From the IMG/VR virus record IMGVR_UViG_3300032331_000479, positions 1 through 23,206 of that record: 23,206 nt of DNA; one strand, written 5' to 3'. Shown here in pieces: positions 12,700 through 15,344 of this stretch; position 1 is the first letter of the stretch, and the number at the start of each line of letters is the position of its first letter. A program made the translations under genes and the position numbers. The notes beneath the pieces were generated by a model. That model was given only the letters and a program-made list of their open reading frames with translations. It was not told where the DNA came from and searched no databases. The stretch is from a virus.

Positions 12700-12894
12700 C
12701 TATTCTCCTTGAGGAATAGTTTCAGCTTGTCTACGCTTAACTAAAATCTCCTCAATTTGCTCAACTCGTTTTTTAGGAATATCTTTTGTTGGTTCTTTAG
12801 CCCAATATTGAATTGCTTGAATAGATATATCTAAAGCATATGCCATCTTACGTCTTGAGTTATTAAAGTGTGCTACAGCCTCTGTAAAGTTCAT
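12700..12894 (-). CDS. Cro-like repressor
   Basis: A 64-residue DNA-binding protein starting MNFTEAVAHFNNSRRKMAYA. The segment RKMAYALDISIQAIQYWAKE is a Cro-type helix-turn-helix, and DIPKKRVEQIEEIL follows the usual 'IP-x-x-R-x-x-x-I-E' ending. Cro proteins dimerise on operators between divergent promoters. Here the gene is the first of the leftward replication operon, with AAGGAG seven bases before the ATG and a promoter at 12923-12951. No CI partner is visible in the window. It probably controls both divergent operons, tuning early against late expression. Confidence 0.78.
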   Translation of the reverse strand: MNFTEAVAHFNNSRRKMAYALDISIQAIQYWAKEPTKDIPKKRVEQIEEILVKRRQAETIPQGE

Positions 12895-12922: not shown

Positions 12923-12951
12923 ACTATAACACTTATTTAAAATCTTGTCAA
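12923..12951 (-). promoter_or_regulatory. Strong leftward promoter of the replication operon
   Basis: On the minus strand TTGACA (12951-12946) and TATAGT (12928-12923) are separated by exactly 17 bases, a near-consensus sigma-70 promoter. Transcription would start near 12916, about 22 bases before the Cro-like start. It is the mirror image of the rightward promoter at 12973-13001. Confidence 0.8.
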
Positions 12952-12979
12952 ATAATTATTTACAAATACTTGTTGACAA
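12945..12979. promoter_or_regulatory. Operator-like region between divergent promoters
   Basis: TTGTCAA (12945-12951) and TTGACAA (12973-12979) form an inverted repeat containing both -35 boxes. Between them lies ACAAATACTTGT, an imperfect palindrome, next to TTTACAAA, similar to the repeats at 6692-6730. A Cro dimer could cover both -35 boxes. Confidence 0.5.
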
Positions 12980-13001
12980 TAATAATAACTAGGAGTATAG
13001 T
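12973..13001 (+). promoter_or_regulatory. Strong rightward promoter of the recombination operon
   Basis: TTGACA (12973-12978), a 17-base spacer and TATAGT (12996-13001) make a near-consensus sigma-70 promoter. Transcription would start near 13008, leaving an 18-base leader with AGGAG before ATG 13026. The elements are identical to those of the leftward promoter. Confidence 0.82.
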
Positions 13002-14538: not shown

Positions 14539-14775
14539 ATGGCAGAACAAAAATATGATAATACAAACACATTTACATTATTTAAAAATGAGCAGGGAGA
14601 CAATCCTAAAAAACCAAACTATACTGGTTTAGCAAATATTGACGGTATTGAGTTTAGAATTGCAGGCTGGATTCGTGAAGGTAAAAGCGGTAAGTTTATT
14701 AGCGGAACTGTTCAATTAAAAGATGGTGATGTTAAACCTAAACAAGCAGCAATAAATGAGGATGTTCCTTTTTAG
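14539..14775 (+). CDS. SSB-like protein with acidic C-terminal tip
   Basis: A 78-residue protein starting MAEQKYDNTNTFTLFKNEQG with YTGLANIDGIEFRIAGWIRE and GKSGKFISGTVQL. This is a five-strand OB-like pattern seen in small phage single-stranded-DNA-binding-like proteins. It ends in NEDVPF, closely resembling the acidic DDDIPF tip by which bacterial SSB contacts partner proteins. It is far shorter than bacterial SSB (about 170). It follows the Erf and exonuclease genes with AAGGAG seven bases upstream, so coating the resected strand is a sensible role. The family assignment remains tentative. Confidence 0.65.
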   Translation: MAEQKYDNTNTFTLFKNEQGDNPKKPNYTGLANIDGIEFRIAGWIREGKSGKFISGTVQLKDGDVKPKQAAINEDVPF

Positions 14776-14785
14776 GAACACCCTC
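14758..14785 (-). terminator. Hairpin after the pqqA-like gene
   Basis: In the leftward RNA, GAGGGTGTTCC pairs with GGAACATCCTC around the loop TAAAAA (11-base stem, one G-U pair). It starts eight bases past the pqqA stop. No long U run follows, so it may be a weak terminator or an mRNA-stabilising hairpin. In the rightward RNA the same stem has one A-C mismatch and ends the SSB-like gene. Confidence 0.5.
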
Positions 14786-14793
14786 TCTAGGTA

Positions 14794-14865
14794 TTACTTG
14801 TTCATAACGTACATTGTAACTTCAAAGCCGAAACGCATTTCAGTTGCTGATGGTTTTGTCCACAT
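14794..14865 (-). CDS. pqqA: PqqA-like coenzyme PQQ precursor peptide
   Basis: A 23-residue peptide starting MWTKPSATEMRF and ending GFEVTMYVMNK. The family pattern, M-W-x-K-P then (E/D)-x-R-x-G-F-E-V-T-M-Y, is fully present. PqqA is the ribosomal substrate for PQQ. PqqE, with the chaperone PqqD, links the conserved Glu (here residue 15) to the Tyr (residue 19) in E-V-T-M-Y. Proteolysis and PqqB/PqqC then complete the cofactor of methanol and glucose dehydrogenases. Here pqqA stands alone, on the opposite strand to its rightward neighbours, with AAGGAG six bases before the ATG, its own promoter and flanking hairpins. The other pqq genes must come from the host. Both key residues and length (22-26 in the family) are intact. 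Confidence 0.9.
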   Translation of the reverse strand: MWTKPSATEMRFGFEVTMYVMNK

Positions 14866-14883
14866 GATTTGCTCCTTGTTTAT

Positions 14884-14903
14884 GACATACAAAATTGTTT
14901 GTC
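14884..14903. promoter_or_regulatory. Palindrome at the predicted pqqA transcription start
   Basis: GACATACAA and TTGTTTGTC form 9-base arms (8 of 9 pairs) around a 2-base centre. The repeat lies from about +1 to +20 of the predicted leftward transcript. It could be an operator for a repressor or a 5' hairpin protecting the short mRNA. Confidence 0.5.
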
Positions 14904-14909
14904 TAGCAA

Positions 14910-14938
14910 ATTATGCTGTTTTTGCGATACAAAAGCAA
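14910..14938 (-). promoter_or_regulatory. Candidate promoter of the pqqA-like gene
   Basis: On the minus strand TTGCTT (14938-14933) and CATAAT (14915-14910) are spaced 17 bases apart. The -10 matches five of six consensus positions and the -35 only three. The start would be near 14903, giving a leader of about 38 bases. A GCTGTTTTTGCGATACAAAAGC quasi-palindrome region overlaps the spacer (about 14915-14936). Confidence 0.5.
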
Positions 14939-14981
14939 GTATAAAACATTTATTTTACCCTAATGAAAATACGGAGACATT

Positions 14982-15344
14982 ATGGATTTTGATGATGATA
15001 TAGTAGATAATGATGACAATAGTCGCTTGACAGAATTACCAGAAGCCAAGTTATTATTAGCTATGCTTTACCAGACTATAGATGATGCTTTATATGTTCC
15101 CAAAAGAACCAAAGAAAATGCTACAGAAAAAACAGTGACATCTTTAAAATCTAAAAATAAATTAGCTTTACGAGACAAGATAGATGCTATACAATGGTTA
15201 TTTGATGATAATGATATTTATGATTTGTGTTGTGAATTAGCAGGAATGAATAAATATAATATTAGAAATATGATTATTGAAAAAATAGGTGCAGAACAAA
15301 TTCTTCCTTTAGTACATGGATTTTATCAACCAAATGGACATTAA
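14982..15344 (+). CDS. Hypothetical acidic phage protein, 120 residues
   Basis: A soluble protein with an acidic N-terminus (MDFDDDIVDNDDNSRLTELP), then LPEAKLLLAMLYQTIDDAL and AIQWLFDDNDIYDLCCELAG. A similar arrangement ('LPEA' helix, then 'WLF-(S/D)-D') occurs in uncharacterised phage proteins. No catalytic motif is present. ACGGAGA lies six bases before the ATG. It restarts the rightward gene series after the reversed pqqA and overlaps the hydrolase gene by 11 bases. The function is unknown. Confidence 0.6.
   Translation: MDFDDDIVDNDDNSRLTELPEAKLLLAMLYQTIDDALYVPKRTKENATEKTVTSLKSKNKLALRDKIDAIQWLFDDNDIYDLCCELAGMNKYNIRNMIIEKIGAEQILPLVHGFYQPNGH

Follow-up and report, generated by a model that had tools for sequence, protein, structure and literature searches.

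A phage-borne pqqA gene with a putative Methylophilaceae PQQ regulatory site ahead of its promoter

Phage morons have their own promoter, lie in reversed orientation and are missing from syntenic relatives. In cyanophages, pstS of P-SSM2 and genes of S-PM2d are under PHO-box control by the host PhoBR, and the available text of the same report indicates that predicted boxes in phages can fail to bind (PMC10976474). A virus population from Lake Baikal, VP_266, encodes PqqA and methanol dehydrogenase; in the available text of that study it is predicted to be a methylotroph phage and its gene is read as an auxiliary metabolic gene (PMC7678222). In Pseudomonas, according to the available part of a third report, the pqq operon is activated by AgmR, a LuxR-type regulator (PMC12997753). 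Searches inside the papers on phages Melnitz, MEP401, MEP301 and Venkman found no mention of a pqq gene, and in the open-licence literature searched, neither a PQQ box nor phage use of one was described. Here we describe a viral pqqA gene that seems to use the switch of the host rather than one belonging to the virus.

The window, by which we mean the whole stretch of DNA analysed, is an entire virus record of 23,206 bases. At the locus of interest, genes for an Erf annealing protein, an exonuclease, a 70-aa protein and an SSB-like protein are followed by pqqA in reversed orientation and then by genes for a 120-aa protein and a lytic protein (Table 1). The lytic protein matches PHROG endolysins and is annotated as a lytic transglycosylase in the relative MW202481, the sole annotated phage record that is alike across the entire 2.9-kb stretch (72%). 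The remaining nine matches are Methylophilales or Methylophilaceae phages in which similarity to this stretch is limited to the pqqA segment. The initial annotation was correct in reading the short reversed frame as pqqA. Its translation, MWTKPSATEMRFGFEVTMYVMNK, matched the Pfam PqqA model (PF08042; E 3.2e-11, 43.3 bits against a curated cut-off of 21.1) and NCBIfam TIGR02107 (E 2.3e-10, 40 bits against a curated cut-off of 20); a PHROGs search with PqqA gave no match. Elsewhere in the window, strong divergent sigma-70-like promoters (12923-13001, TTGACA-17-TATAGT on both strands) lie beside a P22-Cro-like gene (12700-12894; Pfam match below the cut-off), and together these are probably the main early switch of the phage.

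Table 1. Features of the pqqA locus, with positions in the window.
Feature	Position	Strand	Basis
SSB-like gene, convergent with pqqA	14539..14775	+	PHROG single strand DNA binding protein, E 4.1e-13
Hairpin that spans the SSB stop codon and lies 8 nt beyond the pqqA stop	14758..14785		RNA fold; retained in L216
pqqA, 23-aa PQQ precursor peptide	14794..14865, stop included	-	Pfam and NCBIfam models
Shine-Dalgarno AAGGAG of pqqA	14872..14877	-	Read from sequence
Imperfect dyad on the predicted transcription start, candidate 5' stem-loop of pqqA mRNA	14884..14903	-	RNA fold, phage-wide folding excess
-10 CATAAT, 44 nt past the end of the PQQ box	14910..14915	-	Sequence; +44 is the modal host spacing
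-35 TTGCTT, 17-nt spacer to -10	14933..14938	-	Sequence; kept in relatives
PQQ box, 17-bp palindrome, candidate regulator site; overlaps Shine-Dalgarno of divergent gene	14960..14976	-	Host-derived matrix
120-aa gene, divergent from pqqA	14982..15344	+	Variable in relatives, judged by spacing

Using tblastn, we found pqqA in MEP301, Venkman, MEP401, MEP402, P19250A and four Melnitz records, which are all nine of the Methylophilales or Methylophilaceae phage records returned, and in MW202481; the taxonomy holds further Methylophilales phage names outside these nine (MEP431-434, HIM624-A and others). The PqqA family model confirmed the gene in all seven records re-searched, six of the nine plus MW202481. 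The presence of pqqA in P19250A is contrary to a statement in the available text of PMC7678222 that this phage encodes none of the genes of VP_266. Five of the nine records have no annotation at pqqA. A hypothetical protein is annotated there in MW202481 and in the four Melnitz records, and in the two records inspected it lies on the strand opposite pqqA (L008, Melnitz-1, 74848-74943; MW202481, 2067-2195). This shows that the 23-aa pqqA is missed by gene callers. At least 120 viral contigs contained a matching PqqA pattern, and the totals of the pattern scans of viral and host genomes are lower bounds. None of the 221 viral loci examined contained pqqBCDE and only seven had a host match longer than 300 bp, which argues against these contigs being disguised host DNA. 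Two weak tblastn matches in Acinetobacter phage MD-2021a were excluded because the one inspected (L460, CAKLQF020000010.1, a record labelled Acinetobacter phage) adjoins ppk, pqqB and pqqC and is thus probably bacterial DNA that entered a phage collection.

Upstream regions of host pqqA genes share a 17-bp palindrome of the CTMATGAWWWTCATTAG type about 103 nt before the start codon. The host set comprised at least 120 stretches from Methylophilaceae pqqA loci, a few of them titled only Burkholderiales, Rhodocyclaceae or Betaproteobacteria. A matrix for this PQQ box was trained on 118 host pqqA upstreams alone, at least one of which (L332) resembles phage DNA in a genome assembly, judging from its upstream sequence, and phage sequences were then scored with it. 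In LSUCC0665, a complete OM43 genome, the extended matrix scored 31.6 bits at pqqA (a training member), 25.4 bits at a tandem pqqA pair and 17.0 bits at pqqBCDE, against a peak of 14.6 bits for the reversed-matrix control; one 16.5-bit site lay inside an ORF. With the core matrix, intergenic sites above 16 bits occurred only at these same three places, and the four other sites above 16 bits were all coding. PqqB, C and D of this genome were confirmed and PqqE was assigned by place and sequence. Methanol dehydrogenase was not supported as a regulon member, its best upstream site in LSUCC0665 scoring 8.0 bits.

We also read 30 pqqB loci from 60 family genomes searched. In all nine with a GC content of 0.40 or lower, pqqB is preceded by a box at a distance of 77-89 nt. 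Of the 21 remaining loci, one has a strong box (L456, 24.3 bits), two have borderline sites (L429, 10.6 bits, p 0.010; L427, 11.8 bits, p 0.020), and in most no box is present. Regulators found in LSUCC0665 include two GerE-domain proteins, each adjoining an ORF that resembles its kinase (by eye, from the ORF start), and one of the Fur family; the PQQ box resembles a Fur box. Tandem host pqqA copies separated by about 200 nt, the first of which differs (WTQP..VCN[RK]), were seen in L241, L244, L312, L322, L330 and at 875 kb in LSUCC0665. In that genome, two weaker box-like sites also lie adjacent to each other (686701 and 686724) ahead of a small predicted exported protein.

The window contains such a box, CTCCGTATTTTCATTAG on the minus strand, which was overlooked in the initial annotation and is the key element of the locus. 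It scores 18.2 bits on the plus strand and 13.9 bits on the minus strand and is the best matrix site in the whole window on either strand, the runner-up anywhere scoring 10.8 bits; the extra host half-site at +6 to +12 was not seen in the window. Among 153 unique phage upstreams, 118 scored above 6 bits (7.7% of shuffles), 95 above 10 bits (1.3%) and 68 above 12 bits (0.5%), with 35 below 6 bits. When only dissimilar upstreams were counted, 56 of 98 exceeded 10 bits (shuffles: mean 0.9, maximum 3) and 27 exceeded 14 bits (shuffles: 0.1). Melnitz-1 scored 19.4, Venkman 15.7, P19250A 13.0 and MEP301 9.9 bits; the box was not found upstream of pqqA in MEP401 (-0.5 bits) or MEP402 (3.8 bits). In 123 phage loci, the 20 kb before pqqA contained 36 sites that scored above 14 bits, compared with two in 941 kb elsewhere.

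In hosts, a -10 element lies 43-46 nt past the box in 41 of 86 representatives (shuffles: mean 3.1, maximum 9), exactly +44 being the mode (34 of 86) and also the spacing in the window. In phages, 13 of 70 have the -10 at +43-46 (shuffles: mean 4.0, maximum 10) and 27 of 70 have it at +20-23 (shuffles: mean 4.2, maximum 13); four other spacing bins were close to or under the shuffle means. The typical short phage spacing, +21, brings the box about two helical turns nearer than the host +44, and such a difference would be the usual mark of an activator working next to or over the -35. Based on these observations, we consider it likely that the phage pqqA is an auxiliary gene for the PQQ precursor, driven by a promoter of host type that a putative host PQQ regulator would control.

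The promoter itself, TTGCTT and CATAAT, shares 8 of 12 letters with the consensus and falls under the threshold of a promoter scan. Shuffles of 14866-14981 yielded a promoter of equal quality in 12% of cases and a palindrome as good as the dyad in 13%, so neither is significant alone. The -35/-10 pair is conserved among relatives, the -35 persisting across leader types A, B and C with a few variants (TTGATT in L164; TTGCTA in L157 and L161). The claim of an autonomous reversed transcription unit with its own predicted, 17-base-spaced promoter is thus supported by conservation. A second dyad, TTTTGTATCGCAAAA at 14920-14934, occupies the promoter spacer; its near matches elsewhere in the window are at chance level.

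The initial annotation went further and described pqqA as a self-contained moron with a private hairpin, which would let it be expressed independently of the phage programme. The hairpin is real and far beyond chance (12 pairs, 4-nt loop, -20.4 kcal/mol, z -6.0), without a strong U run. Each of the 37 SSB relatives at or above 81% identity has a reversed pqqA directly past the SSB stop, and 13 distant ones (44-66% identity) have none there. Of 39 loci whose sequence reaches far enough ahead of the transglycosylase for the junction to be compared, 38 had pqqA, at about 157-186, 443 or 518-526 nt from the transglycosylase; judging by this spacing, the 120-aa gene is probably the variable part of the junction. 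The one empty locus, L216, keeps the order exonuclease, SSB, transglycosylase, 76-aa gene and next gene, and pqqA is absent throughout its 34,955-base contig. It retains the hairpin spanning the SSB stop; thus the hairpin is not private and belongs to SSB at least as much as to pqqA. Other hairpins occur downstream of pqqA elsewhere, in 74 of 112 dissimilar downstream regions (6 when shuffled), 32 of them followed by a T-rich tail (0 when shuffled).

Since 38 of 39 transglycosylase loci carry it, as do 37 of 37 close SSB relatives, pqqA appears to be a stable passenger and not a mobile one. A classical moron, independent of phage and host regulation, would account for the reversed orientation, the predicted own promoter and the single empty relative, which is a weak case of presence and absence among syntenic relatives. 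We regard it as improbable, since the hairpin is common to SSB, a host regulon box is present, and both neighbours are opposite to pqqA in just 58 of 128 phage contexts. The claim of expression independent of the phage programme is likewise unsupported, because it overlooks the host PQQ regulon site that the unit carries.

The dyad on the predicted transcript start had been proposed to answer to a host or phage regulator. It is imperfect, with 8 of 10 pairs, and its RNA fold in the window is modest (-5.7 kcal/mol, z -1.98). After the common -35, relatives of the window show three leader types, and elsewhere in phages unrelated sequences in the same position still pair as stem-loops. In the 40 nt before the Shine-Dalgarno, phage folding had a mean z of -1.47, with p at or below 0.05 in 38% of 98 representatives (11% in the control region); host folding had a mean z of -0.86, with p at or below 0.05 in 24% of 100 (15% in the control region). 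In L041, one dyad pair becomes U-G, so that RNA pairing is kept and DNA symmetry is broken. The promoter is therefore conserved as sequence and the palindrome as pairing, which points to a 5' mRNA stem-loop and not a shared operator. We consider it unlikely that the dyad is an operator through which a repressor, of phage or host origin, silences pqqA. In favour of an operator are the position of the dyad, its near-identity in 22 of the 202 phage records listed and the Cro-like protein encoded in the window (below the Pfam cut-off). Against it, other phages have unrelated stem-loops at this site, the U-G pair of L041 preserves only the RNA symmetry, and the window holds no second copy at up to three mismatches, including in the divergent promoter region near the Cro-like gene; the half-site pattern ACAAA-N4-TTTGT occurs there at chance level only, and the full dyad once. 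In several relatives (L131, L135, L137, L144, L145 and L164) the pqqA leader is longer, and two dyads resembling stem-loops follow one another from promoter to Shine-Dalgarno.

In the window family, the box has a degenerate left half (CTCCGTA) that coincides with the Shine-Dalgarno of the divergent 120-aa gene (14973-14976), and for this reason the family is not the cleanest example of the box. The same overlap would suit a box kept for the 120-aa gene, as its 5' leader and Shine-Dalgarno, with only a coincidental likeness to the host pqq site, but this is very unlikely given boxes in unrelated phages with different neighbours (Melnitz and P19250A, for example), the concentration of sites near pqqA and the +44 spacing shared with hosts.

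The peptide is consistent with a role in PQQ synthesis. The ExxxY pair targeted for cross-linking by PqqE is EVTMY in the window, and its E and Y are retained in 202 of the 202 phage records listed, a set whose search expression itself required them in that layout. Across 141 unique phage pqqA coding sequences, pN/pS was 0.14, indicating purifying selection. Together these results support a working PQQ precursor, and a host metabolic homologue under purifying selection would qualify as an auxiliary metabolic gene. That phage PqqA is instead a decoy or modified signalling peptide occupying PqqD/PqqE is highly improbable. In favour of a decoy, pqqBCDE is missing from all 221 viral loci and the residue at position 4 can be K, T or S (T or S in 11 loci among the close SSB relatives), but T is also the commonest host residue there, E and Y are kept under purifying selection, and a pqqA under the host PQQ box would be made alongside the enzymes.

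Returning to an auxiliary gene under host control, we propose that a putative host transcription factor for Methylophilaceae PQQ genes binds the box and helps RNA polymerase start pqqA 44 nt downstream; in other phages, where the box is nearer by two helical turns, it would coincide with the -35. The resulting short transcript would open with a stem-loop that probably protects the 5' end, and it would encode PqqA, the sole pqq product used one-for-one as a substrate. Because PqqA is consumed in this way, carrying the precursor gene alone makes sense. Together with host PqqBCDE, the phage peptide would keep PQQ, and hence PQQ-dependent methanol dehydrogenase, supplied during infection. More broadly, the evidence leans to some degree towards an undescribed Methylophilaceae PQQ regulon, with the palindrome before pqqA copies and pqqBCDE, under whose regulator several phage lineages separately placed pqqA, at host spacing or two turns closer, each with an interchangeable 5' stem-loop. 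If so, infection would increase the supply of PQQ precursor in line with the signal by which the host registers its own need for PQQ. Through methanol oxidation, OM43 and Methylopumilus connect algal carbon to CO2, and a near-universal phage pqqA tied to a host switch would mean that these phages tune methanol oxidation while they infect the cell. The PQQ box also offers a sequence handle for finding the PQQ regulator of Methylophilaceae.

Compared with described systems, the window pqqA resembles morons in its own predicted promoter, reversed orientation and absence from one syntenic relative, and differs from them in having no private terminator, being near-fixed in relatives and being tied to a host regulon site. 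Like VP_266, it is a case of PqqA in a predicted methylotroph phage; the available account of VP_266 gives no regulatory site, whereas a box is described here (PMC7678222). With the AgmR system it would share an activator devoted to the genes for PQQ biosynthesis, putative here, and the comparison of AgmR with the Methylophilaceae site and regulator is one of analogy. In contrast to the cyanophage PHO box as described in the available text, the box here is a predicted one with a putative regulator, appears to be undescribed, and concerns the PQQ/methylotrophy pathway and a 23-aa substrate peptide. As in those cyanophages, a metabolic gene of the phage would be governed from a host regulatory site that precedes its promoter.
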